Positions 1 to 13,208 of a stretch of DNA of 64,000 nt are shown one piece after another. Positions within the stretch are counted from its first letter, which is position 1. The number at the start of each line of letters is the position of its first letter. A model generated the notes under the pieces. That model ran no database searches and was not told where the DNA came from. It saw only the letters and a program-made list of their open reading frames with translations. Origin of the DNA: Paenibacillus sp. FSL W8-0426 (GTDB lineage Bacteria > Bacillota > Bacilli > Paenibacillales > Paenibacillaceae); assembly GCF_037969725.1 (NCBI RefSeq), contig NZ_CP150203.1, forward strand, positions 1,628,001-1,692,000, given 5' to 3'. A program made the translations under genes and the position numbers.

Positions 1-2
1 CA

Positions 3-1523
3 AATACGACGAGGCGTACGGTTAGCTTCACGGTGACGGACGGTGTCAATGTGAGCAATACAGCGACACGAATTGTAACGGTCGCGGCCACCAACCAGAC
101 ACCAATTGTGACCACGAGTGGTGGTTCGACCAATTACATTTCAGGGAATAGTACAGCTTCGACTCCGGTCGCTATTGACGGCGGTCTGACGGTTTCTGAT
201 CTTGACAATGAGACCTTGGCCAGCGCAACGGTTAGCATCACGAGCCACTTCGACGCGGGAAAAGATGTGTTGGCTTACATCAATGACGGGAAGACCATGG
301 GAAATATTACGGCAACTTATGATGCTCTCATGGGCATGCTGACGCTGACGTCCGCAGGTGGAACCGCAACGTTGGCGCAGTGGCAGAGTGCGTTGCAAGC
401 CGTTACTTACAATAATACATCCGTCTCTCCAAATACGGCGACGCGCACGATCAGCTTCACCGTAAGCGATGGTACCAAAGTTAGCAGCATCGCAATGAAG
501 AGCGTTACCTTGCAGGCATTAAGCAGTTTAAGGGCTACTCCGAATACGTTAAGCGTACTGACCGGGCAGACGGCATCGGTGGCGGTTACTGCTATTTTTT
601 CAGATCAGGCGCATATAGATGTGACCTCATCGGTAACCTGGACTGTTCGCAATCCGTCAATTGCTAATGTTATCAGTGGGAGAGTTACTGGTAAGGCGAC
701 AGGTAGTACTGTCGTCAGTGCTGTCTATGGAGCCCAATCGGTAGATATAAACGTAACAGTAACCGGCGCGCCAGTTTCGGGGCCAGAATCCTCTACGAGC
801 AGTTCGACCAATACAAGCAGTTCAACCAATACAAGCACTTCAATCGATACGAGCACTCCGGCTAAATCGGACCCTTCAACGCCTCCAGCTCAGGAGACCA
901 AGCATTTTCACGCTCTTGTTGAAACCGATCGCCTCATAGCTTTTATACAAGATGCATTGGCCGGTAACTCTGTAACGTTCCAGGATGTGGCGTCCCATTG
1001 GGCTTCCAAAGATATTTTATCCGCTGCCAAGATAGGAATAATCAATGGCTACCCAGACGGCAGATTCAGACCGGATGCTTCTATTACGAGAGCAGAGTTC
1101 AGCACACTTCTTGTTAAAGCATTTGCCCTACGTTCAGGAAGCGGAACGATTGAGTTACGGGATATTCAGACCTCCTGGGCGCGAGAATCTATAGAAATTC
1201 TTGCTTCCAATGGAGTTATCAACGGGTACTCTGACGGAACGTTCCGTGCTGATCAGAGGATTACACGAGCCGAGATGGTTGCTATGATTTCGAAAATTCT
1301 GATTTTTCAGGATAGTCCATCTGGCGATGCCCCAACATTCGTTGATGTAGCACCCAAGCATTGGGCGAAGGAGATCATAGAAGCGGCTGCAAGGGCTGGA
1401 TTACTCGAGGGCAAGAGCCAAAATAGGTTTGAACCGGACGCCAACCTCACGAGGGCGGAAGCGTTAACGGTGATCATGCGCATGCTGAGAGAGAATCCAA
1501 CGATAGATCAATTGCTGGGTTAA
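3..1523 (+). CDS. SLH-domain surface protein, 3' part (5' truncated by window edge)
   Basis: The reading frame is open to the left edge, so the N-terminus and signal peptide lie outside. Order seen: end of one cadherin-like beta-sandwich repeat, one full repeat of the same kind (about residues 15-165 of the visible part, with the VSDLDNETLASATVSIT stretch), a Big2-type Ig-like domain (about 175-255), a Ser/Thr-rich linker with repeated SSTNTS units, then three S-layer homology domains (about 315-505) carrying NGYPDGRFRPD, NGYSDGTFRAD and EGKSQNRFEPD followed by TRAE. Such proteins are exported and held on the cell wall by SLH binding to pyruvylated secondary polymer. The end of the first repeat resembles the end of the second at the DNA level, so the missing part probably holds more tandem repeats. 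The protein's own function cannot be told. Confidence 0.9.
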   Translation, partial: NTTRRTVSFTVTDGVNVSNTATRIVTVAATNQTPIVTTSGGSTNYISGNSTASTPVAIDGGLTVSDLDNETLASATVSITSHFDAGKDVLAYINDGKTMGNITATYDALMGMLTLTSAGGTATLAQWQSALQAVTYNNTSVSPNTATRTISFTVSDGTKVSSIAMKSVTLQALSSLRATPNTLSVLTGQTASVAVTAIFSDQAHIDVTSSVTWTVRNPSIANVISGRVTGKATGSTVVSAVYGAQSVDINVTVTGAPVSGPESSTSSSTNTSSSTNTSTSIDTSTPAKSDPSTPPAQETKHFHALVETDRLIAFIQDALAGNSVTFQDVASHWASKDILSAAKIGIINGYPDGRFRPDASITRAEFSTLLVKAFALRSGSGTIELRDIQTSWARESIEILASNGVINGYSDGTFRADQRITRAEMVAMISKILIFQDSPSGDAPTFVDVAPKHWAKEIIEAAARAGLLEGKSQNRFEPDANLTRAEALTVIMRMLRENPTIDQLLG

Positions 1524-1628: not shown

Positions 1629-1697
1629 TACCTATTTAAAATTGGTTTGTTCGACTCCCTATGGGATGAAAAAGAGCTTTCCTTTTTTGTTTTGGAA

Positions 1698-1853
1698 TCA
1701 CATATATTCGACGTGTTCAAAGTCCATTGGGATCATATAGGCATTGGAAAATGAGCATCTGATATATTTCCCTTTTTCACCAAATTTTTCTTCGCAAATA
1801 TCGCCCCATAGGTTATCATATACGTAGTTCAGATTATAAGGCAGAATGTGTTG
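1698..1853 (-). pseudogene. C-terminal gene fragment between the SLH gene and the cassette array
   Basis: On the minus strand an open frame of about 51 codons ends at a TGA (1698-1700) and is opened by a TAA near 1854, with no start codon and no ribosome binding site. It contains NLWGDICEEKFGEKGKYI and ends MIPMDFEHVEYM, which reads like the natural end of a protein and not like a shadow. The upstream part is missing, so this is a remnant. It shows no tyrosine-recombinase motif, so it is not a lost integron integrase as far as can be seen. Family not recognised. Confidence 0.4.
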
Positions 1854-1878
1854 TATTTACGAAGTACATAGATTAGAT
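1851..1878 (+). promoter_or_regulatory. candidate promoter reading into the cassette array
   Basis: TTGTAT (1851-1856), 16 bases, TTAGAT (1873-1878), directly before the first cassette boundary. An integron would have its cassette promoter (Pc) in such a place. The -10 match is imperfect. Confidence 0.3.
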
Positions 1879-1885
1879 GTTATGT
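1879..1885 (+). other. left boundary of the array (GTTATGT, attI-like half or remnant attC right end)
   Basis: GTTATGT is followed by GAAATCATC, the same block that follows the right-hand core of attC sites 1 and 5. No partner AAC core or L arm is visible to its left, so it may be the crossover point of an attI-type site or the surviving end of a lost cassette. Confidence 0.45.
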
Positions 1886-1929
1886 GAAATCATCTCATAG
1901 AAAAGCATTTTACCAAAGGGAGATCAAAA

Positions 1930-2541
1930 ATGAATTCTGAAAATTTTTCATGGACAGAAGTCTACTCGTCTTGGAAATATTTTGTTGAAAATTATAGCTG
2001 CAAATCTATTGAAGACCCGATCTTCAAACAAGTTCAAATACAATCACAATCGAATCCTAATCTCAACATTGGAACTGGAATAATAGATTGGTGGCCGACT
2101 AATGAAATTGAATATAGAACAAAAAAGTTAAATGATAGAGGTATCCTAGGTGCTGATTGGGATACGGTAGTAGGTTTTAACCGAACTGCTGAAATGTTAT
2201 GGGAAAACAAAGAAAATAATGAAAAACAAGCTCTGATTTGGATTGCTGCTGGATTGAATGAAATATTAACTCATCTCCCAGAAGAATGGAGAGGAAACAC
2301 GTATAGATTTATCTACGAAACTAAATTGAATATTATGAAAGAATTTAAAGATAGAAATATGTGGACATGGCACGCCTCGACCAAGAATTTCTTGCCTGTC
2401 AAAGTTAATAAATTCATGCAATTATATTCTGCCCCGATGGAGATATATAACTTAATAAATATTATAGCTATCGATAATGCTTTTTCAAGAAATGCATGGA
2501 CATTAGTGCATGTTTCTCGAGAAGAAGATGACTTCGACTAA
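1930..2541 (+). CDS. hypothetical protein, cassette 1
   Basis: A 203-residue soluble protein, family not recognised. Start at the ATG after AAAGGGAG. It is rich in Trp, Asn, Glu and Lys, predicted mostly helical, and ends in an acidic REEDDFD tail. It has no signal peptide or membrane segment. The TAA stop lies inside the left core of the next attC site, typical of cassettes in which the gene fills the whole module. By company (nuclease-like and HEPN-like cassettes) it may be a conflict or stress gene, but nothing in the sequence itself proves that. Confidence 0.75.
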   Translation: MNSENFSWTEVYSSWKYFVENYSCKSIEDPIFKQVQIQSQSNPNLNIGTGIIDWWPTNEIEYRTKKLNDRGILGADWDTVVGFNRTAEMLWENKENNEKQALIWIAAGLNEILTHLPEEWRGNTYRFIYETKLNIMKEFKDRNMWTWHASTKNFLPVKVNKFMQLYSAPMEIYNLINIIAIDNAFSRNAWTLVHVSREEDDFD

Positions 2542-2631
2542 CATAATATTCACGCTGCGGGCATTCGTCCTGGATCCGGCATTCGCCTGACACCCAACAT
2601 TCGTTGGGTCGTGAATACGGGAACGTTATGA
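2536..2631 (+). other. attC-like site 1
   Basis: Left core GACTAAC (2536-2542), right core GTTATGA (2625-2631), inner arms ATTCACG and CGTGAAT, and a small hairpin ACCCAAC-att-cGTTGGGT just before the right arm. 96 bp. Confidence 0.8.
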
Positions 2632-3429
2632 GAAATCATCAAAACATAGGAGGTATAAGAGACGAGTTTTATCTGGGGAAGAGTCCCCAAGAAGCGTATC
2701 AAAACCCTTATGAGTACGAAGCTCAAAATCAGTTTTACAGAGAAACCAGTAAATTATTAAAGCTATTATTTGAACATATGATAAAAAATCAGGTACATAT
2801 GTACGTGACGATCCAAGTGCTGAAAAGGCTATTTGGATGTTATCTCTTGATTCTCTAGAATCTTTAATTGATTGTCTTGATTTACTTAGAGATAAGAAGC
2901 ATAGGATTGCAGGTAGGCTATTTCGTGATGCTGTAGAAACAATGGATATAGCCTCTTATATTAATTCCAACGATCCAAAAAAAGATAAGCACTTAAGAGA
3001 CTGGTATAAAGATAAAGCCATACTAAATAGCATCTATAAAAAATATATAAAAGAAAACGATGAACAGGAGTGGGAAGTACTACAAAAATACTATAAAAAA
3101 TTATCCAGAATTAATCATAGAACATATAGATCCTTAGCGTTTTCTTACTCATTAGGAAGTAAAGAAAGGCTGATATATGAGGGGGGGATATGAGAGCGGA
3201 TTAATGGTTCCTCCTTATGTGATCGCAATGTATTATGCTCTACTTAGTGGTTAAATCAGTCATTTCGTATTGAGAGTAGTTGATTGCAGTTGATTGCAGA
3301 TTGATTTCTGCCGAAGAAGTAGATACATTTTGGGATCAGGCTTTAGAAGAGGAAGTTATAGAAAGAAAATTTGTTTCGCCCAAAGAAATATTTGAAAGAT
3401 TTATCAAAGAGACTGATAACATCGCATAA
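2628..3429 (+). pseudogene. frameshifted gene of cassette 2
   Basis: One protein appears to be spread over several frames. The first part (from about 2628, AGGAGG near 2649) reads to a run of six A at 2783-2788. One extra A would join it to the next frame, giving KKSGTYVRDDPSAEKAIW and then a helical stretch with RLFRDAVETMDIA. A run of seven G at 3181-3187 ends that frame, and one G fewer would continue it through GYESGLMVPPYVIAMYY to a TAA near 3254. A last open stretch (3280-3429, ...FWDQALEEEVIERKF...) ends in the next attC core. A tandem GTTGATTGCA repeat lies just before it. The breaks may be true decay, phase variation at homopolymers, or read errors. A helical DUF5677-like or HEPN-like relation is possible but unproven. 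Confidence 0.6.
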
Positions 3430-3519
3430 CATAATATTCACGCTGCGGGCATATGCCTTTGGTCCGACATTCGTCGGACACCCAGAATGAGCTGGGTCGT
3501 GAATACAGGAACGTTATAG
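3424..3519 (+). other. attC-like site 2
   Basis: Left core GCATAAC (3424-3430), right core GTTATAG (3513-3519), arms ATTCACG/CGTGAAT. The centre holds three short hairpins: GGCATATGCC, GTCCGAC-att-CGTCGGAC and CCCAG-aatga-GCTGGG. 96 bp. Confidence 0.85.
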
Positions 3520-3547
3520 GAAATCAGTGCAAATAGGAGAGAAGTGA

Positions 3548-4822
3548 ATGATAGTCACCATATCCGACTTTTTACAGTCTGTAATGAACAAAGAAAAAGA
3601 ACTAATTAAAAAATATGAAATTGTACGACATGGTCCAACAATTGGTGATATGTATGAAGGCCTTACATCAGATTTATTGAACAAGGCTATATTTGAAGGG
3701 CTAGATGTTCGAATTGCATCAGGCAAAATAAAAAATAAAGAAGGGGAATTTAGTAATGAAATTGATTGCATGATAGTAGAAGGGGAAGGTGAGCGAATTC
3801 CTTATACAGACAAATACATATATGATATGACACAAGTAATAGCTGTATTAGAAATTAAAAAAAACTTATACATCGATAATTTGATTGATTCTTATAATAA
3901 GATGAAGAAAATTTATAATTTGTCTGATCTAGACCCGGAATTATTAAACATGCGAGGGTTTAGAGATGCGTTTAGACATATTGTAAAGGCGGAATTACCT
4001 TCTTATGAAGAAGTACAGACATCGCTAGATTATAATAAACAAATTATATACCATAACTTATTAATTGAAGAAATGCTGCCTGTAAGAATTATTTTCGGAT
4101 ACTATGGCTATAAAACAGAATATGCTTTGAGAGAAGCATTTTTTAGATATTTGTCTAATAACTCGAATATTACAGGTCATAGTCCAGCAGTATTTCCAGA
4201 TCTAATTATATGTGATAATAGTTCATTGGCTAAATTAGATGCTATGCCTTATATAGGTAGAATAGATGAGAAAGGATATTGGGATTTTTATGGTTCATCG
4301 ATTCATAATCCGCTATTACTTCTTTTAGAATTTATTTGGACTAAACTTAGTTATCGATATAATTTAAATAGCAATATTTTTGGTGAAGATCTTGAATTCG
4401 AAAGCTTTCATCCTTATCTAAAAGGAAAAGCTCATAGAATGGATGACGGTACATTAGGTTGGGAAATAAGATATCAATATATAAAAAAAAGTAATTTGAG
4501 TCACGAGCCTAGTTTTATTGAATGGGAGCCTGCGGAGCTAAATGAAGTAGAATGGTTTGTAGTAAATTGGTTATGCATGTATTGTGAGCTAAATATTAAT
4601 AAGCCAGGATTTAGAAACTGGCTTGATGAAAAGACTGTAACATTAGAAACTATGATTGAGGGTCTGACACAAAAAAACTTAATAGCATTTAATAACGATC
4701 AAATTACACTCCTAACTGACCAATGTCAGGTTGTTACACTAAATGGAAAATGGTATGCTGCTGAGAATAAGTCAGGAAGGCTAACAAACTGGATCAATAA
4801 AATTATGAATAATAGAGAATAA
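3548..4822 (+). CDS. DUF6602-like PD-(D/E)XK nuclease-fold protein, cassette 3
   Basis: A 424-residue protein; start after AGGAGAG. The N-terminal third resembles the DUF6602 family: GPTIGDMYEGLTSDLL (about 29-44), then EIDCMIV with D73, and AVLEIKKNLY with E102 and K104. D73 followed by E102-x-K104 is the active-site pattern of PD-(D/E)XK nucleases, with E37 as a likely helper. The C-terminal part (about 280-424) is not recognised and could act in target recognition. Proteins of this kind are often found in defence islands. Family assignment is from memory of motifs; nuclease activity is inference. It is the largest cassette in the array. Confidence 0.7.
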   Translation: MIVTISDFLQSVMNKEKELIKKYEIVRHGPTIGDMYEGLTSDLLNKAIFEGLDVRIASGKIKNKEGEFSNEIDCMIVEGEGERIPYTDKYIYDMTQVIAVLEIKKNLYIDNLIDSYNKMKKIYNLSDLDPELLNMRGFRDAFRHIVKAELPSYEEVQTSLDYNKQIIYHNLLIEEMLPVRIIFGYYGYKTEYALREAFFRYLSNNSNITGHSPAVFPDLIICDNSSLAKLDAMPYIGRIDEKGYWDFYGSSIHNPLLLLLEFIWTKLSYRYNLNSNIFGEDLEFESFHPYLKGKAHRMDDGTLGWEIRYQYIKKSNLSHEPSFIEWEPAELNEVEWFVVNWLCMYCELNINKPGFRNWLDEKTVTLETMIEGLTQKNLIAFNNDQITLLTDQCQVVTLNGKWYAAENKSGRLTNWINKIMNNRE

Positions 4823-4866
4823 AATTAGACAAGCGTTATAAGTAGTTCAAAGTAGGAACAGACATC

Positions 4867-5013
4867 ATATAACAAAATATTCACGCTACGGGATTAATCC
4901 CCTTAGTTGTCAGAAGGAAAAATTCGAAGAAGTAGCTCAGCCAACAACTCCCCTAGCCTAAGATAAGAGCCTATCTAAGGCTGGTGAATTTCGTTAATAC
5001 AGGAATGTTACGG
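4867..5013 (+). other. attC-like site 3
   Basis: Left core ATATAAC (4867-4873), right core GTTACGG (5007-5013), left arm ATTCACG; right arm is degenerate. A long hairpin AGCCTAAGATA...TATCTAAGGCT fills the centre. 147 bp. A CAAGCGTTATAA stretch just upstream (4829-4840) recurs at the terminal site near 13198. Confidence 0.7.
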
Positions 5014-5052
5014 GAAATCCGGCAAATACATAAATGAAAAATGGAGAAGAAG

Positions 5053-5649
5053 ATGAAGAAATTTAAAGTTTTTTTTGAATGGGAATTTCAAACACTTGTA
5101 TTTTTTTTAGAAAATGCCTCAAATCATTTTTTGAATAAAAGTTATAATAATACCCAAACTGATATATTTGTATCATCAGACGGTAAAATGTCAGATTATG
5201 AATTGTCTATAACCTCTCTCATGTTAACTTTTGAATCAACAATAAATAAATTGAATAATATAGTAGATTTTGCGTTGTTATGCTTTGTAAATAATATTTC
5301 GAATTTTCATGAAGATACGTTGGATATATTAGAGATTCAAAAGCAATTGAAAGCATCTAGATCTACTTTATTAAATACTCTTAAACATGACGGAATTTAT
5401 TATGATAAACTCCCGGGATGGAATCATGTAATTAATGTAAGAGATGATTCAAATGCTATAAAACATCGTGGTGGAATCCATGTACCAGTTGAGTCTCTCT
5501 ATAATATACCTATTTCAAAAAATGTAGATCTTCGGAAAGAGAAGATGACTGACTATATTAATGGTATCAAGACATGGCTATTTAATTTAATCGATGAGAT
5601 AGAGCGTAATTCAATGAATAAGGATAGTACAAAAGATGGTGAGCAATGA
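5053..5649 (+). CDS. helical protein with HEPN-like R...KH motif, cassette 4
   Basis: A 198-residue protein. The ATG at 5053 is preferred over the one at 5041 because GGAG stands six bases before it. The chain is predicted almost wholly helical. Near the C-terminus it has R130-DDSNAIK-H138 followed by RGG. A conserved Arg with a His some residues later in the last helices is the mark of HEPN-fold proteins, many of which are RNases or toxins, although the usual spacing is four to six residues and here it is seven. I therefore call it HEPN-like only. No signal peptide or membrane segment. No partner antitoxin is seen in the cassette. Confidence 0.65.
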   Translation: MKKFKVFFEWEFQTLVFFLENASNHFLNKSYNNTQTDIFVSSDGKMSDYELSITSLMLTFESTINKLNNIVDFALLCFVNNISNFHEDTLDILEIQKQLKASRSTLLNTLKHDGIYYDKLPGWNHVINVRDDSNAIKHRGGIHVPVESLYNIPISKNVDLRKEKMTDYINGIKTWLFNLIDEIERNSMNKDSTKDGEQ

Positions 5650-5678
5650 GTATGCATTTCAAAGAAGTGCCAGACATC

Positions 5679-5803
5679 CTATAACATAACATTCACGCTG
5701 TGGACCGGCCTCGCCGATCCTTGGTCCTGGAAGTAAGAGCAAGGAAGCAATTGCCGGGACACATTCACCTTTGGTGGATGTCGTGAATGCGGAAACGTTA
5801 TGG
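5679..5803 (+). other. attC-like site 4
   Basis: Left core CTATAAC (5679-5685; a second ACATAAC overlaps at 5684-5690), right core GTTATGG (5797-5803), arms ATTCACG/CGTGAAT, hairpin ACATTCACC-ttt-GGTGGATGT before the right arm. 125 bp. Confidence 0.8.
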
Positions 5804-5863
5804 GACAAGTTCACCAAAGCAAATAAAGATATAATTGATAAAATCAATATATGGAGGAATTAT

Positions 5864-6658
5864 ATGAACTTATATGAAGTTGATTATACTAAACCAACAG
5901 GAAAATACGTAGCAGCTATTAAAGAATATAATGAATTTTGGAGTCAGGGACAAATTGATTTTTCCAAAGCTTCCGATCCAATTGAAAAGTTTGATGATGA
6001 GACGAGAAAGTTTATTTATAACTTCAATACTAAATTTCCCAATAATGTTGTATGGCATTATCATAGAGATAGAACATCTGTAGATTTAGAAGTAAATGCA
6101 CTAAGGAAGGTCATTAATTCTGCGAAAAATGAGCATGATATTCAAGATTACATTAAGAAAAATAGAAAGTGGTTTATCCCGGCTTCAATATTTAAAGAGT
6201 ATAATTTTGGTCACAAAGAGACGTATCTCTTTCCAGAAATGAAGTTAGGAAGTAGCATGCAAGCAGATTATGTTTTATGTGGTAGAAACTCTGATGGATA
6301 CAGCTTAATCCTTGTTGAATTCGAATCACCGGCTTCAACATTTGTTTTAACTGATGGTTATAAATTATCAGCATCGGCTAATTCTGGCTTAGGTCAGATT
6401 AATCAATGGAAAGAGTGGATGGAATCAAATAATACAACATTTTTTAATGAGCATAAATTTACTGAGAAAGGCATAAATGTTCCTATTACAAGGATTCACT
6501 ATTGTTTAGTGATTAGCAGAAGAAATCAAATGGAGACAAATGATAGAGATCGAAAAAATAGAATAATTATTGAATCAACGAATTTAAATATAATTAATTA
6601 CGATAGAGTGTGTGATTATGTTTCTAATCTAGTTGAAGGATATAGTACTTATAGATAA
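5864..6658 (+). CDS. sduA: Shedu-like (SduA, DUF4263) antiphage nuclease, cassette 5
   Basis: A 264-residue protein. The frame is open further up, but that part runs through the attC site; the ATG at 5864 has GGAGG six bases before it. The C-terminal domain (about 90-240) carries the features of DUF4263/Shedu nucleases: a HDIQDYIKKNRKWFIP lead, LFPEMKLGSSMQADYVL with D135, LILVEFE with E152 and E154, and a later GQINQWKEW with Q178. D135 with the VEFE strand fits the PD-(D/E)XK fold. Shedu is a known single-gene antiphage system. Here it is carried as a cassette between two attC-like sites. The N-terminal 85 residues are not recognised and may sense infection. Confidence 0.8.
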   Translation: MNLYEVDYTKPTGKYVAAIKEYNEFWSQGQIDFSKASDPIEKFDDETRKFIYNFNTKFPNNVVWHYHRDRTSVDLEVNALRKVINSAKNEHDIQDYIKKNRKWFIPASIFKEYNFGHKETYLFPEMKLGSSMQADYVLCGRNSDGYSLILVEFESPASTFVLTDGYKLSASANSGLGQINQWKEWMESNNTTFFNEHKFTEKGINVPITRIHYCLVISRRNQMETNDRDRKNRIIIESTNLNIINYDRVCDYVSNLVEGYSTYR

Positions 6659-6683
6659 AAACATAATATCTGGTGAAATCATC

Positions 6684-6806
6684 CCATAACACGTCGATTC
6701 CCACCATTCCCCTTGATGTCGCGGTTTTTGCGAAGCAAGCACCGCGACACTTTTTCCGCTAAGGCGTTAAAAGAGGGGGACAGCGGGAATCGCGGGAACG
6801 TTAAAC
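6684..6806 (+). other. attC-like site 5 (divergent)
   Basis: Left core CCATAAC (6684-6690), right core GTTAAAC (6800-6806). The inner arms differ from the rest: CGATTCCC and GGGAATCG pair with each other, so the fold is kept while the sequence is not. A strong hairpin TGTCGCGGT...ACCGCGACA fills the centre. 123 bp. Confidence 0.7.
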
Positions 6807-6836
6807 GAAATCATCAAAGACGGAGAGGGATTAAAA

Positions 6837-7445
6837 ATGTTTAAGGACAGAGTATATATTTCACCAAGATACTATCTTGAAGATTACTTAGCATTGAATT
6901 TATCTTTAACAAGTGATGAGCAAACTTGGCAGCGAGCGATAAACATATTTTCAGATCGAATTGAAGGAAGGTTTCTACTTCTGATACAAGAATATTCTGA
7001 TAACATAACGGCAAATTATAGATATATTGATTATAGTTTTAGCACAATGGCATTATGTAGTTTGCTTATTGAAACGCTTCATCAGTTTTATAATGGGCTT
7101 GATGTTACAGTTTTCAGAGGACATAAAGAAGCATTTGTACAATTTTTGACTAAAAGTAATTATTTCGGGGGCTATTTTACACGAAGAACAGCCAGTTTTT
7201 TTTATTCAGATATTAGAAATGGAATATTGCATCAAGCGCAGACAAAAAGAAATACTCAGCTTACTTTTGAACAAGAAAACATGATTATTGAAATCGAAAA
7301 CGGAATTAGTTTAGATGTAATTAAATTTAAAGATGAATTACTTAACGAATACCAAGAATACTTGGAGAGACTAAATAACAATAGTAATTATGAACTGAGA
7401 GAAAATTTTATCAAAAAAATGGATTATATTACAACGAGAATTTAG
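6837..7445 (+). CDS. HEPN-like protein with Rx4H motif, cassette 6
   Basis: A 202-residue, largely helical protein; start after GGAGAGGG. Residues R127-NGIL-H132, followed by QAQTK, match the Rx4-6H active-site motif of HEPN RNases, and the preceding helices (CSLLIETLHQFYNG, FYSDIRNG) are what the fold would show. HEPN proteins act as toxins or antiphage RNases, often together with a nucleotidyltransferase antitoxin; none is present in this cassette. The motif is visible; RNase activity is inference. No membrane segment. Confidence 0.7.
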   Translation: MFKDRVYISPRYYLEDYLALNLSLTSDEQTWQRAINIFSDRIEGRFLLLIQEYSDNITANYRYIDYSFSTMALCSLLIETLHQFYNGLDVTVFRGHKEAFVQFLTKSNYFGGYFTRRTASFFYSDIRNGILHQAQTKRNTQLTFEQENMIIEIENGISLDVIKFKDELLNEYQEYLERLNNNSNYELRENFIKKMDYITTRI

Positions 7446-7473
7446 TAATGCGGATACTCAGTACAATGAATTC

Positions 7474-7589
7474 GTTTAACAATATATTCAAGCAGCAGCT
7501 CTGTAGGAGCCTTGGTCTGCGGGAAGGATTTCGAAGAGGAATATCAGGAGAAAACCCCTTTGGGGTTTATGAATACAGGAACGTTATCA
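7474..7589 (+). other. attC-like site 6
   Basis: Left core GTTTAAC (7474-7480) fits RYYYAAC exactly; right core GTTATCA (7583-7589); arms ATATTCA/TGAATAC; hairpin AAACCCC-ttt-GGGGTTT before the right arm. 116 bp. Confidence 0.8.
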
Positions 7590-7615
7590 GAAATCTAATC
7601 AAGGGAGCAAAAAAA

Positions 7616-7690
7616 ATGAATTTCTTAGAATTAGAGTATTGTGAGAAATGTAAAACACAAGAGTGTACGATGCCAGAGATTACACAGTTT
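7616..7690 (+). pseudogene. N-terminal stub of a cassette gene cut by an IS30 remnant (cassette 7)
   Basis: A well-placed ATG (AAGGGAG before it) opens MNFLELEYCEKCKTQECTMP, about 25 codons with a CxxC...C pattern that suggests a zinc-binding start. At about 7690 the sequence runs into transposon-derived DNA on the other strand. The rest of the gene is not found, so it was lost when the IS element inserted or decayed. Confidence 0.5.
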
Positions 7691-7925
7691 AGCTCTCTTG
7701 AGAGTTTTCCGCGCAGTACGAGTGTTCTGCTGTATTTCGGCGGAGTTCCCGGCCAATGGTGCATGATGTCTGCCAAGTTCCTGGGCAATCGCTCTGGTAC
7801 TTTTCCCCTGCTGGTGGAGGATTTCTAGCTTGCTTCGCTCGATTATGCTAAGATGTGTGTAGCTCATGGTGGATTCTCCTTGTGTGAATGGTTGTTGTGG
7901 TGACTTCATTCTACACCAATCCGGC
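7690..7925 (-). mobile_element. decayed IS30-family insertion sequence, 5' end only
   Basis: On the minus strand an ATG at 7867, with GGAG before it, opens MSYTHLSIIERSKLEILHQQ and ...STRAIAQELGRHH, the typical N-terminal helix-turn-helix of IS30-family transposases. A one-base shift follows: the expected TIGRELRRNTAEHSYCAEN continues in the next frame and then hits a stop, and the catalytic DDE part is gone. The upstream edge near 7905-7925 (TGGTGTAGAATGAAGTC on the minus strand) may be the terminal repeat. It is a dead remnant that broke one cassette and probably removed the attC site between the stub and the next gene. Confidence 0.75.
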
Positions 7926-8003
7926 CATGGGCCCTTTGTCTTTTTATTTCCAGTACGTGTCGCACTTCATATTACAACCCGTCAAATGAAAAGGAGAGCA
8001 ATT

Positions 8004-8816
8004 ATGAAAATTTGTAGTTATTGCAAGTCGCACAAAGACGAACCATTAACTAAAGAACATGTTTTTCCGGACTTTTTATTCAAGAAAAACCCAGACTATA
8101 AATTTGGTTATAATGGTGGAATAGGAAAATATACATTGTCAGCCGATCAAATTAAAGATGTTTGCCAATATTGTAATAACGTAATTTTATCTGGATTAGA
8201 TACCTATGCAAAGGATTTATGTGACAACTATTTTGATAGTTTTATTCGTACTCAACCTATTGAGTTCGAGTACGACTACGATATGCTTTTAAGATGGATA
8301 CTTAAAATATCTTACAATGCAGCTCGAGCATATAAAACATCTACAGCTGAGTTTGAAAGTTACATACCATACATTTTGGGTGAAGGAAATAATCCTAAAT
8401 TATACACCTTATTATTAGGTAATGTTATGAAGGTATCAGTACACGAAGGAGAACAATTTCCTCCAAACATATTCGCTGCTACATATTTGTTTCCGTTATA
8501 TGGTGCGAGAAGTCCTGAATTATTTAGAATGGTGTATATTCGTTCATACATGTTTATCATTATGGGTTGGGGAGAAAATACAAATATATTTGAACGCCAA
8601 AAACAGCTTGAATCGTTTATTTCTCTAACTGGTGCAAGTGTAATAGAAAGCAACAAAAATAAATACTGGTTTGACCCCTCAAAATCTCAGTTTGATTACC
8701 TCGAATACAGAAGTAATCAATTAAAGATGGATCCTCGAAGACAACTAAGTAGAAAAGAATTAAATGAATTTTCAATGCGAAATAAAAGCCTTAAAGAAAT
8801 TCCGTATATTGATTAG
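8004..8816 (+). CDS. HNH-like zinc-binding nuclease family protein, cassette 7
   Basis: A 270-residue protein. ATG at 8004 follows AAGGAGAG; the upstream extension of the frame is IS-derived. The N-terminus shows CSYC (C4, C7), then KEHVFPDFL with H19, then CQYCNN (C54, C57, N58-N59). Two CxxC pairs around an EHxxP histidine are the pattern of HNH-type endonuclease domains seen in defence genes and in proteins annotated as HNH endonucleases. The C-terminal 200 residues are not recognised. Whether it cuts DNA is inference. No attC site separates it from the IS remnant, so it may once have been its own cassette. Confidence 0.65.
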   Translation: MKICSYCKSHKDEPLTKEHVFPDFLFKKNPDYKFGYNGGIGKYTLSADQIKDVCQYCNNVILSGLDTYAKDLCDNYFDSFIRTQPIEFEYDYDMLLRWILKISYNAARAYKTSTAEFESYIPYILGEGNNPKLYTLLLGNVMKVSVHEGEQFPPNIFAATYLFPLYGARSPELFRMVYIRSYMFIIMGWGENTNIFERQKQLESFISLTGASVIESNKNKYWFDPSKSQFDYLEYRSNQLKMDPRRQLSRKELNEFSMRNKSLKEIPYID

Positions 8817-8841
8817 GGTAGCTCAAGAAGGCGAATACATA

Positions 8842-8939
8842 AGATAACATAATATTCAAGCTTCGGGCATAGGCCCTTGGTCCAGCTGTCGCCGGATACC
8901 CAGCATGCGCTGGGTCGTGAATACCAGTTAACGTTATCA
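8842..8939 (+). other. attC-like site 7
   Basis: Left core AGATAAC (8842-8848), right core GTTATCA (8933-8939), arms ATTCAAG/CGTGAAT, hairpin ACCCAGC-atg-CGCTGGGT before the right arm. 98 bp. Confidence 0.8.
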
Positions 8940-8972
8940 GTAATGCCCAAAACATAAAAAGGGAGTGAGAAA

Positions 8973-9509
8973 ATGGATCTAACAATAATAAAGGGAATTA
9001 ATATAGCTATTTCGGAGCTGTGTGAAAAAGATCGTCATTTGTTAAGTCATGATTTAAATGAAAGAACAATCGCACATAAGTTAGCATTATATCTTCAAGA
9101 AGAATTCCAAGAGTACAATGTGGATTGTGAGTACAATAGAAATATTGACGAAATGAACAAACAGAAAAGAATCTATGTTTTAGAGTCAGAATGTGAAAAA
9201 CTCAAAAAGGATTTTACAAAAGACATTGTTTATGGCGACACGGAATATATGGGGTTATCAATTTTTCCGGATATAGTAATCCACCGGAGAGGGGAGAATA
9301 CTAATAACTACTTAGTGATAGAGATTAAAAAATCGACAAATAAACTTGATAGAAGCTTTGATTTCAAAAAATTAGAATGTTATACGGATAAAGAAAGATA
9401 CAATAACTTAGAATATGATTGGGGCTTATTTATTGAATTTGAAACTGGAATGGAGAATTTCAAAAAACCTGAACTAATATGGTTTAAAGAAGGAAAAAGG
9501 ATACTTTGA
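8973..9509 (+). CDS. small PD-(D/E)XK nuclease-like protein, cassette 8
   Basis: A 178-residue protein; start after AAAGGGAG. It shows E30 in NERTIAHKLALYL, D100 in IFPDIVIHRRG and E117-I-K119 in YLVIEIKKS. An N-terminal helix Glu, then D with ExK on neighbouring strands, is the PD-(D/E)XK active-site order. A small stand-alone nuclease-fold protein like this could be an effector of a defence system or a restriction-like enzyme; no methylase or other partner is next to it. Family name not recognised. Confidence 0.7.
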   Translation: MDLTIIKGINIAISELCEKDRHLLSHDLNERTIAHKLALYLQEEFQEYNVDCEYNRNIDEMNKQKRIYVLESECEKLKKDFTKDIVYGDTEYMGLSIFPDIVIHRRGENTNNYLVIEIKKSTNKLDRSFDFKKLECYTDKERYNNLEYDWGLFIEFETGMENFKKPELIWFKEGKRIL

Positions 9510-9522
9510 AAAACGGCATTAC

Positions 9523-9618
9523 AGATAACATATTATTCACGCTGTGGACAGTCGTCCTTGGTCGGGCAACGCCGGGACACTCAGCATATGCTGAGTCGTG
9601 AATATAGAAACGTTAAGT
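9523..9618 (+). other. attC-like site 8
   Basis: Left core AGATAAC (9523-9529), right core GTTAAGT (9612-9618), arms ATTCACG/CGTGAAT, hairpin ACTCAGC-atat-GCTGAGT before the right arm. 96 bp. Confidence 0.8.
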
Positions 9619-9648
9619 GAAATCTGTGTATGGAAGGGAAGGTTATCA

Positions 9649-9714
9649 ATGACATATAGCTATTTTGAGAACGCCTTAAATACAATGGCTACTTCTAGAA
9701 CTTCATTCGGCTAA
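9649..9714 (+). CDS. 21-residue peptide filling a mini-cassette (cassette 9)
   Basis: ATG at 9649 with GGAAGGGAAGG six to sixteen bases before it; MTYSYFENALNTMATSRTSF plus G, stop TAA at 9712 inside the left core of the next attC-like site. The module between sites is only about 90 bp, so if anything is encoded it is this peptide. Either a real microprotein or the remnant of a deleted gene. Function unknown. Confidence 0.4.
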   Translation: MTYSYFENALNTMATSRTSFG

Positions 9715-9870
9715 CACCATTTTGTCGCTCTGGGCCACTCTGAGAAGCGAGTGACCACATCCAGCCCCCCTTAAGCCCGTCGGACGTCACTGCATTAGGT
9801 GTTCGGCAAGCTTCACAACTATAAGCAGGACTCTAAGGGGCCAGGACGTCGTCAATACAAAACGTTATGA
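9709..9870 (+). other. attC-like site 9 (divergent)
   Basis: Left core GGCTAAC (9709-9715), right core GTTATGA (9864-9870) followed by GAAATTC. The inner arms are weak (right arm GTCAATAC). 162 bp, the longest site, with several possible hairpins in a GC-rich centre. Confidence 0.6.
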
Positions 9871-9974
9871 GAAATTCGTTGTAAATGGCTAAGAATAAAA
9901 CGGACCAATCAGTCGATAAGACTCTTCGGACTTTTTTAAATCATGATGAATATTAAAACAAAGGAATGAGAATC

Positions 9975-10466
9975 ATGAAGCTTTTCGGAAAAAAATTGCA
10001 AGTAGATAAATATTTAGAATTAATTGATAACTTAAAATTGGAAGAATCAAACAACATATATAATAATGTGGTAAAACTTAATAAGTTAAAGGGTCATTTT
10101 ACTGACTATAACCTAGCTAATATGCAGGTAATACGAACTGAAGTTAGCTCTCTGGTAGAAGATTATAAACAAAATTCTTTGTTCACTAGTATGATCGCGA
10201 CAATGTTGGCAGTTTTTACAATTGTTTTTACTATTCTGAGAGAGCAATTAGGATTATATAAGCTCACAGGATTGTTCTCTCCAATATTAATTCTACTTAT
10301 CGGATATGTATTGATTAAGATGCTATTGATGTTTAGAAGTTATTCGAGAAGTTCAAAAAGTTTAAATCAATTATTGAGCATTATTGATTTAATAATAGAA
10401 GAACGTCGGAATATGGATATACTACATCAAGAAGCTTATAACGATTTTCTTAACAAGAGACAGTAA
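9975..10466 (+). CDS. small membrane protein with two transmembrane helices, cassette 10
   Basis: A 163-residue protein. The ATG at 9975 fits AAAGGA better than the one at 9966, which touches it. Residues 1-65 are polar and helical, followed by two hydrophobic segments (about 69-88 and 99-120) and a charged helical tail. Small two-helix membrane proteins are common membrane-damaging effectors or immunity-like proteins in conflict islands, but the family is not recognised. A 23-codon ATG frame lies upstream at 9885-9956 without a good ribosome binding site. Confidence 0.65.
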   Translation: MKLFGKKLQVDKYLELIDNLKLEESNNIYNNVVKLNKLKGHFTDYNLANMQVIRTEVSSLVEDYKQNSLFTSMIATMLAVFTIVFTILREQLGLYKLTGLFSPILILLIGYVLIKMLLMFRSYSRSSKSLNQLLSIIDLIIEERRNMDILHQEAYNDFLNKRQ

Positions 10467-10594
10467 AGAAAATAAACATATAAAAGCCCTTCCAATAAAA
10501 GAATTTGCATATCGAATCTGCCAATTGTAAGAATTACTCAATGATAAAAATGAATACATTAGGAAAGTGTTGGAATAGATGACTACAACACCTC

Positions 10595-10690
10595 AGCTAA
10601 CATTTGATTCCCGCAGTGTCGTAAGTTCCTTGATCTTCCTTTACGGCAGATAACCTCTGGAGAGGTTCGTGAATCAGGAAAAGGTTATGC
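10595..10690 (+). other. attC-like site 10
   Basis: Left core AGCTAAC (10595-10601), right core GTTATGC (10684-10690), arms TGATTC/GAATCA, hairpin AACCTC-tg-GAGAGGTT before the right arm. 96 bp. Confidence 0.75.
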
Positions 10691-10718
10691 GAAATTCATG
10701 TGAAAGGAATTAAACTAA

Positions 10719-11429
10719 ATGATAGAGAAATGGGTTCATTTTGAGTGTATATTCAGAAATAAATGGGGTCTGAGAATTATTACAGAAATTCATAAAGCAA
10801 CAAAAGAAGGACGTATTGCTACACCTAGTGATGATTTTTATGATTTCTCCATGTCAATAGCAATAAGACTAGATCTGATAGACCGACTATTAAAAAGACT
10901 TACTAATAGTATACAACTGTTAAGTAAAGAAATAATGAATGTATCTGAAGAGCATATTTTCACACGGGACAAAGAAGGATATGCTCTTTGCATAAACGAT
11001 GGTCTAAAGCTGGATCTATTAATCGATATCGATGCATTTTTGTTTGAGATCAACTCCTGCTGCGAATTATTTGGTCAGTATATTTATGAGTTATATGCCG
11101 CAATGGGGATATTTATTAAAAAAGAAAATACAGGACAAGAGTTAGCAAGAATACTCAGAGTTGCTTCAAGCGACACATCGTGGTTCAAGACCCTCGATGA
11201 AAGTAGAAATTTCTTTATTCATAATGGAGCACCATATATTGCTCTTGATATTACTAATGAGAACAACATGAATATTATAATTATGAAGGGAAATTTGAAA
11301 AGCTTTGAGGATTCTAAAAAGTATATAACATTGCATGATCTTGTAGACATAAGAGAAGGCTTTAAAATATCGCTACAATTATTGCAAGATCATCTAATAA
11401 CTTGTGTAAGTAGTGCTTCGAAGCGATGA
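10719..11429 (+). CDS. HEPN-like protein with Rx4H motif, cassette 11
   Basis: A 236-residue, mostly helical protein starting after an AAAGGA about ten bases away. R163-NFFI-H168 followed by NG is an Rx4H motif of the HEPN RNase type in the right place (late helices). It is the second clear Rx4H protein of the array and is not similar in sequence to the one at 6837, so it is not a recent duplicate. The stop codon stands just before the left core of attC site 11. RNase or toxin role is inferred from the motif alone. Confidence 0.65.
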   Translation: MIEKWVHFECIFRNKWGLRIITEIHKATKEGRIATPSDDFYDFSMSIAIRLDLIDRLLKRLTNSIQLLSKEIMNVSEEHIFTRDKEGYALCINDGLKLDLLIDIDAFLFEINSCCELFGQYIYELYAAMGIFIKKENTGQELARILRVASSDTSWFKTLDESRNFFIHNGAPYIALDITNENNMNIIIMKGNLKSFEDSKKYITLHDLVDIREGFKISLQLLQDHLITCVSSASKR

Positions 11430-11434
11430 ACATC

Positions 11435-11553
11435 GCATAACAATATTTTCACGCATTGGGCTGTACCCTCGGTCCGGCAGTAGATATTAACAGGAAGTTG
11501 ATTTAGCGGACACATCCGACTTCGTCGGATGTTGTGAATACGGAACTTTAGAC
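11435..11553 (+). other. attC-like site 11 (altered crossover base)
   Basis: Left core GCATAAC (11435-11441). The right core reads TTTAGAC (11547-11553), where the first G of GTTRRRY, the base at the exchange point, is T. Centre hairpin ACATCCGAC-tt-CGTCGGATGT; right arm TGTGAATA. 119 bp. Confidence 0.7.
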
Positions 11554-11588
11554 GAAACTGTTATAGAAGATCAGGGGAGGAAAGATGG

Positions 11589-12431
11589 GTGTTGAATAAT
11601 TTTTTAATAATCGGAATTTTTCTTGTTGTATCAGGTATCTTAGCAGTAATATTTGGTATGATTTTTATGAAGGGAATTGTTCCATTTTGTGAATTTATAG
11701 GTAAGAAGTTGGCTAAGAAAATATCTTCTAAGTATTGGATATATTTTTTTGAAATTTTATTCTTGATTTCAATTGTTACATTTGCAATTATTGGTTTATA
11801 TTTAGTTTCTTTCTCTGAATATCCCTTTATATTTGTTATCGTTCTATTTATTTTTACAATCTTAACCGTTATAGAAACAAGCGCCTATACTGAATTTAGA
11901 AATAAAAATAATATAAGCAAAACAAGTGGAATTATTGGTTGGATTGTTCATAGAGCAGTATGGAAAACGTACATGGCAAAACGTATATTACTTTTTATCG
12001 AACAATTAGCTCATACTTTTTATTTATTTGTCCCTTTGTACTTATCTTTGCTTATCATGTCCGAATTAAAATGGAGTGATCAAGAATATTTTTATTTTCT
12101 TTTATTTTTACCGATTTACGCTAACGTATGGGTGTATTTAAGATTCAGTAAAAAAATGTACATAGTTAATTTCAATAGTTATGAGACTTTATTTATGAGA
12201 AGATTAATTATTTACACACTAATAATTGGTTACTCAATAATGGAATCATACAGTAAGTTTTCGCAATATCTCTCTAATAAAAATAATTTATCTTTTGAAT
12301 ATTTATTTGTGTATTCAGCTGTAATTGTATATATAGCAGTTGATAGATTACTTAAAGAAATTGTTTCAGACGTAGAAAAGTTACAACAAGAAGTATTAAG
12401 AAACAGTAGAATAAGAAGAATAAGATTTTGA
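11589..12431 (+). CDS. multi-pass membrane protein, cassette 12
   Basis: A 280-residue protein; GTG start eight bases after GGGGAGG. About seven hydrophobic helices are visible (roughly 5-30, 49-75, 78-100, 137-158, 168-187, 206-222, 236-255), then a basic tail RNSRIRRIRF. Family not recognised. Very low GC. Membrane proteins of this size occur as effectors in several abortive-infection systems, but nothing specific supports that here. Confidence 0.7.
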   Translation: MLNNFLIIGIFLVVSGILAVIFGMIFMKGIVPFCEFIGKKLAKKISSKYWIYFFEILFLISIVTFAIIGLYLVSFSEYPFIFVIVLFIFTILTVIETSAYTEFRNKNNISKTSGIIGWIVHRAVWKTYMAKRILLFIEQLAHTFYLFVPLYLSLLIMSELKWSDQEYFYFLLFLPIYANVWVYLRFSKKMYIVNFNSYETLFMRRLIIYTLIIGYSIMESYSKFSQYLSNKNNLSFEYLFVYSAVIVYIAVDRLLKEIVSDVEKLQQEVLRNSRIRRIRF

Positions 12432-12451
12432 AATCGTCATAGGAGAGCATC

Positions 12452-12545
12452 GCCTAACATAATATTCACGCTGCGGCATACCCCCTGGGTCTGCTGTCGC
12501 CGAACACCCAGCATACGCTGGGGCGCGAATACGGGAACGTTAGGC
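12452..12545 (+). other. attC-like site 12 (perfect core consensus)
   Basis: Left core GCCTAAC (12452-12458) fits RYYYAAC and right core GTTAGGC (12539-12545) fits GTTRRRY; the two are exact reverse complements. Arms ATTCACGC/GCGCGAAT. Hairpin CCCAGC-atac-GCTGGG. 94 bp. The best attC match in the window. Confidence 0.9.
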
Positions 12546-12566
12546 GAATTAAATCCTGCAAGGATA

Positions 12567-13150
12567 ATGATAATGATATTCTGGAAATACCCAGAAGTGA
12601 TAAACGAAGAGCAATTAAAATGGACAAATGATATGATAGATAAGTGGCTAATATTAATTGATAAGATTAGGGAGAATCTTCTTCAAAACTCTGCTATTCT
12701 TGAAAACAATAAAGGCTATGCAAATCAAAGAGACATACAATATTGTTAGAGTTAAGTATGGCCCAATTTTTTACTTTCAGTTCAATATCAGCATTAATTT
12801 CGAATGCACATTATTCGGATGCATTCACGTTCTTAAGAGTATTATACGAAGGACACTTACATTATGGAATTTGTGGAATTGTGATGACGAAGAGTTTCAA
12901 AAATACGTAGCGCTAGTGGTAATGCACGGAATATGTGCATCGCAGTTTCTACGTATTGCGAGAAGGATACGCAGTAGATGTATTGGTTCCAAATCCGCGT
13001 AGAGGGATAGAGACTTGTTGGTGGGCGGCCTCCATAGAATTAGATACAGTCATATGGCAATCGATTTTTTTGGGAGTAGAAGATGTTACTAAGATAATGA
13101 AAGAACTTAGAAATGAAGTAAGAGAATTAGCTAAAGAATGGTTGTTGTGA
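12567..13150 (+). pseudogene. broken gene of the last cassette (13)
   Basis: The first part (12567-12749) reads MIMIFWKYPEVINEEQLKWT and stops. A second coherent stretch in another frame (12758-12910) reads MAQFFTFSSISALISNAHYS and ...LRVLYEGHLHYGICG. A third frame gives DDEEFQKYVALVVMHGICAS, and a last frame from about 12935 ends ...VNDWWAAS-like text: ETCWWAASIELDTVIWQSIF and ...RNEVRELAKEWLL. At least two frameshifts separate parts that look like one soluble protein. Family not recognised. It may be decayed, being far from any array promoter. Confidence 0.5.
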
Positions 13151-13166
13151 GGGAAGAATTAATTCC

Positions 13167-13208
13167 ATCTAACAAGTTTAAAGTTATTATTGAATGCAAG
13201 CGTTATAA
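13167..13208 (+). other. truncated terminal attC-like site 13
   Basis: ATCTAAC (13167-13173) fits RYYYAAC, and TGAATGCAAGC followed by GTTATAA (13202-13208) resembles the right arm and core of other sites. Only 42 bp, so the variable centre is deleted. It marks the right end of the array. Confidence 0.45.

Follow-up and report, generated by a model that had tools for sequence, protein, structure and literature searches.

A cassette array in a Paenibacillus chromosome that looks like part of a native integron-type system with a different integrase

We describe an integron-type cassette array in the chromosome of Paenibacillus sp. FSL W8-0426, at positions 1879–13208 of a stretch of 64,000 nucleotides (nt) of contig NZ_CP150203.1 (hereafter the window; G000:C1:1628001–1692000 of a one-contig, 6.9-Mb genome). 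A first-pass annotation had recognized an array of this kind, which our analysis supports, and had proposed an integron-derived element in Firmicutes. The proposal was half right: the array is of integron type, but it seems to belong to a native system of a different type that is found throughout the genus, and not to be a stray piece of a Gram-negative integron, because the associated integrase lacks the additional domain of the integron integrase IntI. It is highly probable that a decayed sedentary chromosomal integron (SCI) occupies ~1604–1641 kb of the genome, with its third block in the window, that it was served by a HARP-type enzyme, and that its cassettes moved as circles at the G/TT point of their sites. 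HARP-type is our working label for recombinases with an N-terminal domain of ~95 residues followed by SAM-like and catalytic domains close to those of IntI and XerA. The first-pass interpretation is partly supported overall; its main omission is that the array would be a decayed member of a widespread type of integron, one that has another integrase.

The array consists, as first annotated, of 13 plus-strand modules with 12 attC-like sites of 94–162 nt and one degraded site (Table 1). The AAC and GTT cores and paired hairpin arms described there were found again, one right core reading TTT, and the GAAAT block 3' of the right core is present in most modules; the first G/TT point (1879) proved to belong to an attI and not to an attC. 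The L stem (TATTCACG/CGTGAATA) is conserved in most window sites, and sites of the short class carry three small hairpins at the top of the stem. Across 15 sites, both sides had changed in 15 of 32 base pairs and the covariation score was 0.245 against 0.109 after shuffling, a value reached in none of 500 shuffles; the test is biased in favour of the structure, which had been written on a member of the set. Bottom-strand folding of eight sites gave z-scores of −2.0 to −6.75 in six and weaker values in two (−1.49 and −1.76), and in a set of 216 sites the more stable predicted fold was that of the bottom strand at 160 and of the top strand at 52.

The search with an attC covariance model that had been proposed for this array was run with our own model, R1, built from 15 such sites. 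With 150 of 1780 first-look candidates scored, R1 gave 20 matches at E ≤ 1 in the whole 6.9-Mb genome (the 15 training sites and five new ones), all on the plus strand of one 36-kb block (1604556–1640545) and none elsewhere; it recovered 10 of the 12 window sites, missing those at 6684–6806 and 9709–9870. Two Shewanella integron loci yielded no R1 match even at E ≤ 10, so the sites of the array are of another kind. The L stem of canonical attC sites contains two or three extrahelical bases (PMC2727003; this and the other papers are cited from the parts of their text available to us), which are docked by the additional domain, I2, both features serving single-strand recombination in IntI systems (PMC7790495); in a Vibrio cholerae repeat (VCR) devoid of these bases, strand choice is weakened and top-strand recombination shifts to R'' (PMC2727003). 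The L stem of the present sites is without extrahelical bases: a one-base bulge in L'' improves the pairing of only one of 205 sites, the yardstick of canonical sites for this comparison consisting of only six hairpins, some of them doubtful. The central spacer is most often asymmetric, with 4 nt vs 7 nt in 137 of the 205 sites and 3 and 6 nt in 50, the latter perhaps representing the same stem with its reading shifted outward by one base.

Excision of cassettes as circles predicts that the head of a module (after G/TT) pairs with its own tail (before AAC). Into a test of this prediction went 217 sites, 205 of which have AAC and GTT in place, yielding 176 neighbouring pairs less than 2.5 kb apart. 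Of 6 variable positions, own heads and tails of these 176 modules share 5.34 on average, with 112 perfect matches, against a mean of 4.10 (standard deviation (sd) 0.07; 0 of 2000 permutations as high) when permuted within a locus and 3.93 of 6 for the two halves of one attC in place. Cassette circles are implied by this match. For the window itself, three of 11 pairs are perfect, and in two (modules 9 and 10) only 3 of 6 positions match. Strain comparison at the G/TT points, likewise proposed earlier, revealed differences at both attI and attC borders in a genome labelled as the same species (G119). This genome is 97.6% identical to ours until 5 nt past the attI G, where different cassettes begin; a cassette common to both is preceded by different attC bodies, and an extra cassette, with head/tail agreement of 6/6 by eye, is present at window position 3424. 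In G054 and G014, a gene and its following attC match together amid foreign neighbours, with borders ~15 nt or less from G/TT, and in G048 the left homology border is a transposase remnant. Cassette mobility at G/TT is supported by these sequence comparisons.

We propose that cassettes would be captured and shuffled as circles through site-specific recombination at the G/TT of attC and attI. The bottom strand of attC would fold into a stem carrying the R and L boxes, crowned in the short class by small apical hairpins; a HARP-type recombinase would bind the folded boxes together with a double-stranded attI, one strand would be exchanged at G/TT, and the junction would be resolved by replication. 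Since neither I2 nor extrahelical bases are present, the choice of strand and end must have another source, for which the asymmetric central spacer (4 vs 7 nt) and the apical hairpins are candidates. The absence of both features, given their role in single-strand recombination by IntI (PMC7790495), would also suit a recombinase that acts on double-stranded attC through the L'–R' core alone, as at attI, with the palindrome unfolded during recombination. We consider this unlikely, as compensatory changes preserve both arms and the head and tail of each module match in their outer arms, which would be needless for a double-strand site, and as the bottom strand gives the more stable fold.

The window is without an integrase gene, and to this extent its earlier description as a cluster of attC sites lacking an integrase (CALIN) stands; the description fails for the block, which contains decayed integrase pieces and three attI copies, and for those relatives in which the gene is intact. 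The block begins ~23 kb upstream of the window (~1604.5 kb of the genome), and its attI copies lie at window 1806–1890, at 3466–3550 of locus L010 and at 11986–12070 of locus L009; this stretch recurs 3' of the integrase in 10 Paenibacillus loci. A recombinase remnant in two frames (L009:11489–11937) precedes the L009 attI, and a C-terminal recombinase scrap (~3313–3414) that of L010. An intact integrase was found in this genome neither with TIGR02249 (E ≤ 1e-25) nor with the A3 profile (E ≤ 1e-60); at E ≤ 10, TIGR02249 scored the remnant at 77 bits and other recombinase genes (four inspected) at no more than 67 bits. With no intact integrase found, the array in this genome is probably frozen. 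A further recombinase scrap with internal stops, also matched by TIGR02249 at E ≤ 10, lies ~35 kb before the first attC (G000:C1:1569239–1569502; L012:1239–1502), where R1 has no site. The second and third arrays are separated by a large SLH-domain gene with internal repeats (window 1–1523) and other attC-free genes.

Open frames in relatives encode recombinases of ~370–415 amino acids (aa), in which the spacing between the GKGxKDR and HxLRHSFA motifs is 55–62 residues (171 rows), whereas it is 99–114 residues in 110 IntI rows. Both motifs are present in 71 of 104 loci (L024–L127; two are IntI yardsticks, and a few genes occur twice), and all 69 non-IntI loci with a frame carrying both show spacings of 55–61. 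Spacings of 58–62 were obtained for the 102 measurable among 120 listed database relatives and of 99–114 for the 108 measurable among 120 listed IntI relatives, two reference IntI proteins giving 99 and 100. In the alignment, I2 (~40 residues) is missing, as in Xer proteins; residues 274 to 290 are without a helix in a predicted structure model, and the remnant in our genome likewise has no I2 insertion. The enzymes resemble IntI in that the best match in the PDB by sequence is IntI4, the best Foldseek matches are to 2a3v, and the C-terminus reads QSPLD where IntI4 has SPL. A tree sets IntI and HARP-type rows apart from two Xer rows of our own genome (99/99; XerA itself lies outside the tree). 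Against closeness to IntI, VIA-align ranks archaeal Xer (4a8e) first, with Z 22.6, and IntI4 (2a3v) third, with 18.9, and the NCBI archaeal-XerA model outscores the integron model. Five N-terminally extended proteins, at 203–214 bits, remain under the TIGR02249 cut-off of 265 bits. The N-terminal domain weakly resembles HARP, two of six proteins scoring 14.9 and 15.1 bits under the PF07443 cut-off of 25. By the additional-domain criterion the integrase is not an IntI, and the system appears to work like an integron.

Plasmid recombinases of rhizobia and Bacteroidota (L128, L132, L127 and L130) are also without insertion-bearing IntI features and fall together with the IntI and HARP-type rows, apart from Xer; that of L132 adjoins an IS91 family transposase gene. 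On a Chryseobacterium plasmid (L126), a HARP-type relative is followed by unrelated genes on the same strand, with one doubtful hairpin match.

Sites matching R1 (E ≤ 0.01) occur in 92 of 119 genomes, our own included, comprising 70 of the 71 relatives within the genus and 21 of the 47 from elsewhere in the order. TIGR02249 matches (E ≤ 1e-25) were found in 75 of the 119 genomes, which include 48 of the 71 congeneric relatives; many of the matches are split in two near model positions 178–232. Thirty of 34 Paenibacillaceae loci were testable for association (~0.8 kb or more downstream, or the short locus L050), and in all 30 an attC lies within ~3 kb downstream of the recombinase gene with a conserved attI between them. 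Some recombinase genes are incomplete, that of the sibling strain (L109) matching only residues 214–371. A scan of named genomes, from which the best 80 loci were kept, placed Paenibacillus, Saccharibacillus and Cohnella first, followed by Clostridia, Dehalococcoidia, Nitrospirae, Atribacterota and archaeal metagenome-assembled genomes (MAGs); R1 identified 221 sites in these loci at E ≤ 0.05, 218 of them on the integrase strand. Two attC of Saccharibacillus endophyticus (L059:12761–12856 and 13095–13190) stand opposite the integrase strand, perhaps as an inverted cassette pair.

In 46 distant loci, a simple hairpin scan located 40 plus-strand sites in 141 kb downstream of the integrase and five in 333 kb upstream, with eight and none, respectively, on the other strand; at least one hairpin site was present in 21 of the 26 distant loci with over 0.7 kb downstream. 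Heads and tails of 16 distant pairs (three from L069 shared with the 176-pair test) agree at 4.69 of 6 positions, seven perfectly, compared with 3.31 (sd 0.24) when permuted and 0 of 5000 permutations as high. The A3 profile (E ≤ 1e-60) was matched in 28 of 299 Bacillota genomes, the match extending over the N-terminal domain in 13. Similar recombinase-plus-hairpin arrays are present in Clostridia, Nitrospirae and archaeal MAGs, the archaeal cases being MAG contigs that may be misbinned.

Several observations weigh against a cassette system driven by HARP-type enzymes. The junction of the extra cassette in G119 fits a left (R''/L'') exchange or plain homologous recombination and not R'; it may reflect the absent extrahelical bases or indeed plain homologous recombination. 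In G069 and G071, identity begins 13–23 nt inward of the border and breaks off within attC 1, the attC body being different. The two strains differ even though the recombinase gene of our genome (only one was found) is broken and that of the sibling (L109) truncated. The NCBI integron-integrase cut-off (TIGR02249) is reached in none of the 119 genomes. Finally, 23 of 71 same-genus relatives have no TIGR02249 match at E ≤ 1e-25, and 22 of these have attC, so that arrays either persist after the enzyme is lost or rely on a different one. The general layout matches that of integrons and a few CALIN are known from Firmicutes (PMC9024848), as would be expected had a canonical IntI with I2, of Gram-negative origin, built the array and then been lost, leaving an ordinary CALIN in the window and the HARP-type recombinase as a bystander; but this is very unlikely given that IntI is above cut-off in none of 119 relatives, that all 30 testable loci have a HARP-type gene, together with attI, at the head of the array, and that R1 is blank on the two Shewanella loci at E ≤ 10. 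Hardly credible is a reading of the repeats as interspersed hairpins of an ordinary sort, with module turnover produced by homologous recombination between them: neighbouring attC have ~20 identical bases in common in their left halves and one sibling difference fits such exchange, but the genome matches are confined to one 36-kb block and one strand, modules match head to tail, divergence at attI sets in at most 5 nt from G/TT, and the recombinase adjoins arrays in relatives.

Table 1. Features of the cassette array, in window coordinates (bits after R1 are covariance-model scores; head/tail, agreeing positions of six)
Feature	Position	Strand	Remarks
Cassette array	1879–13208	+	13 same-strand modules, 12 attC-like sites, attI at head
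Integrase-gene scar	1650–1755	+	leader and last ~10–15 codons (..IRRVQSPLG..; last codons 1708–1754), gene body lost; by eye against L009:11425–11937 and L010:3313–3414
attI	1806–1890	+	G/TT point for insertion at 1879; a pair of spaced repeats, ACGTAGTTC and ACGAAGTAC (by eye)
Module 1	1880–2625	+	open reading frame (ORF) 1930–2541, 203 aa, no family; relative with other neighbours in G069 and G071
attC 1	2536–2631	+	R1 92.9 bits, training site
Module 2	2626–3513	+	broken frames 2604–3193; other neighbours in G054
attC 2	3424–3519	+	R1 103.5 bits, training site; position of extra cassette of G119
Module 3	3514–5007	+	DUF6602 / PD-DExK-like protein 3548–4822; Pfam 59.8 bits, PADLOC PD_DExK 37.6 bits
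attC 3	4867–5013	+	R1 39.6 bits, outside training set
Module 4	5008–5797	+	ORF 5041–5649, no clear family
attC 4	5679–5803	+	R1 72.8 bits, training site
Module 5	5798–6800	+	Shedu SduA-like protein 5864–6658; PADLOC SduA 160 bits, Pfam SduA_C 54.3 bits; head/tail 6/6
attC 5	6684–6806	+	divergent class, missed by R1; bottom-strand fold z −6.75
Module 6	6801–7583	+	ORF 6837–7445, no Pfam family; head/tail 6/6
attC 6	7474–7589	+	R1 52.3 bits, training site; fold z only −1.49
Module 7	7584–8932	+	HNH-like protein 8004–8816, HNH_5 18.9 bits (weak, below cut-off), behind transposase remnant
Transposase N-terminus remnant in module 7	7631–7909	minus	HTH_38 43.3 bits
attC 7	8842–8939	+	R1 88.9 bits, training site
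Module 8	8934–9612	+	PD-Lambda-3_A-like protein 8973–9509, PADLOC 110.5 bits; other neighbours in G014
attC 8	9523–9618	+	R1 88.4 bits, training site
Module 9	9613–9864	+	nucleotidyltransferase-cassette remnant; matches G000:C1:1606186–1606355 and 1619041–1619238; head/tail only 3/6
attC 9	9709–9870	+	divergent, missed by R1
Module 10	9865–10684	+	ORF 9966–10466, predicted membrane-like protein; weak matches only
attC 10	10595–10690	+	R1 52.5 bits, training site; fold z only −1.76
Module 11	10685–11547	+	ORF 10719–11429; HEPN_Cthe2314 16.9 bits, below cut-off 27.1; head/tail 6/6
attC 11	11435–11553	+	right core TTT, not GTT; R1 49.1 bits, training site
Module 12	11548–12539	+	ORF 11589–12431, hydrophobic, no family
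attC 12	12452–12545	+	R1 73.9 bits, training site
Module 13	12540–13208	+	decayed; ends in degraded attC ~13168–13208 (by eye)

The modules had been described as unrelated, which holds in general but not for module 9, which is what remains of a nucleotidyltransferase cassette present in fuller copies upstream. This cassette occurs three times (L009:5480–6245, L010:2331–3098 and window 9613–9864), once broken, once as an open frame and once as a remnant; the attC sites preceding the two fuller copies differ and those following them are similar. Module 7 is found in G048 with other neighbours and without the transposase remnant, and the stretch around this remnant (~7690–7984) recurs across many genomes of the genus. 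Upstream of the window, the cargo includes a HEPN protein, a DUF3024 protein, a beta-lactamase-fold protein and a nucleotidyltransferase. Judging from profile matches, part of the cargo looks like phage defence (Shedu SduA, PD-Lambda-3_A and the PD-DExK-like protein in the window); most other scanned cassette proteins match no family above cut-off.

Because its enzyme lacks a part thought essential for integrons, the system, which is common in Paenibacillus and relatives, has probably been overlooked so far, and it may show how integrons arose. The integrase search of IntegronFinder 2.0 reportedly requires an IntI-specific profile. An earlier survey selected integrases by the additional domain (PMC2426708), which the report on archaeal integrons takes as a defining feature (PMC9668308), and the IntegronFinder 2.0 paper gives for Firmicutes one complete integron (Limnochorda pilosa) and a few CALIN across the phylum (PMC9024848). 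The literature that we searched on integrons of Paenibacillus, Firmicutes, Bacillota, Bacillales and Clostridia, phage-defence cassettes and HARP-domain tyrosine recombinases, which did not extend to bioRxiv preprints or to most subscription journals, yielded no integron with an integrase lacking the additional domain. A large set of such integrons would break the defining rule, offer a natural comparison for the origin of IntI, revise the view of Firmicutes as nearly integron-free (PMC9024848) and give searchers an integrase to seek beside orphan attC clusters. A bolder reading, to which we incline slightly less than to its opposite, is that a second, older kind of integron extends across Bacteria and Archaea, with HARP-type recombinases without I2 and attC without extrahelical bases. 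Recombination of folded single-strand attC would then predate the I2 helix, IntI would have branched off later, acquiring I2 and shedding the N-terminal domain, and arrays of this kind would account for many CALIN in which no IntI is detected.

Compared with known systems, the catalytic core has the same length as that of Xer proteins, including archaeal XerA, and is likewise without the insertion, and three of six proteins pass NF040815 ("site-specific tyrosine recombinase/integron integrase"), but IntI and HARP-type rows group apart from the two Xer rows (99/99). The dif sites on which Xer proteins act are double-stranded, and these proteins are not known to have cassette arrays. Taken alone, the window resembles a CALIN in having attC without an integrase gene; it differs in the attI copies and integrase remnants of its block, and the intact integrase of relatives would fail the usual criteria for IntI. 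With the IntI integrons (SCIs of Vibrio and Shewanella, and class 1) the system shares an attI followed by tandem same-strand cassettes, attC of R''-L''-L'-R' organization, the G/TT border, a more stable bottom strand, a related recombinase (IntI4 being the best PDB sequence match) and the circles implied by head/tail matching. In contrast to those integrons, the HARP-type integrase is without the additional domain and carries an extra N-terminal domain, the L stem of its attC is without extrahelical bases, and the integrase gene lies on the cassette strand, whereas in the Shewanella yardstick (L173) it lies on the opposite strand.

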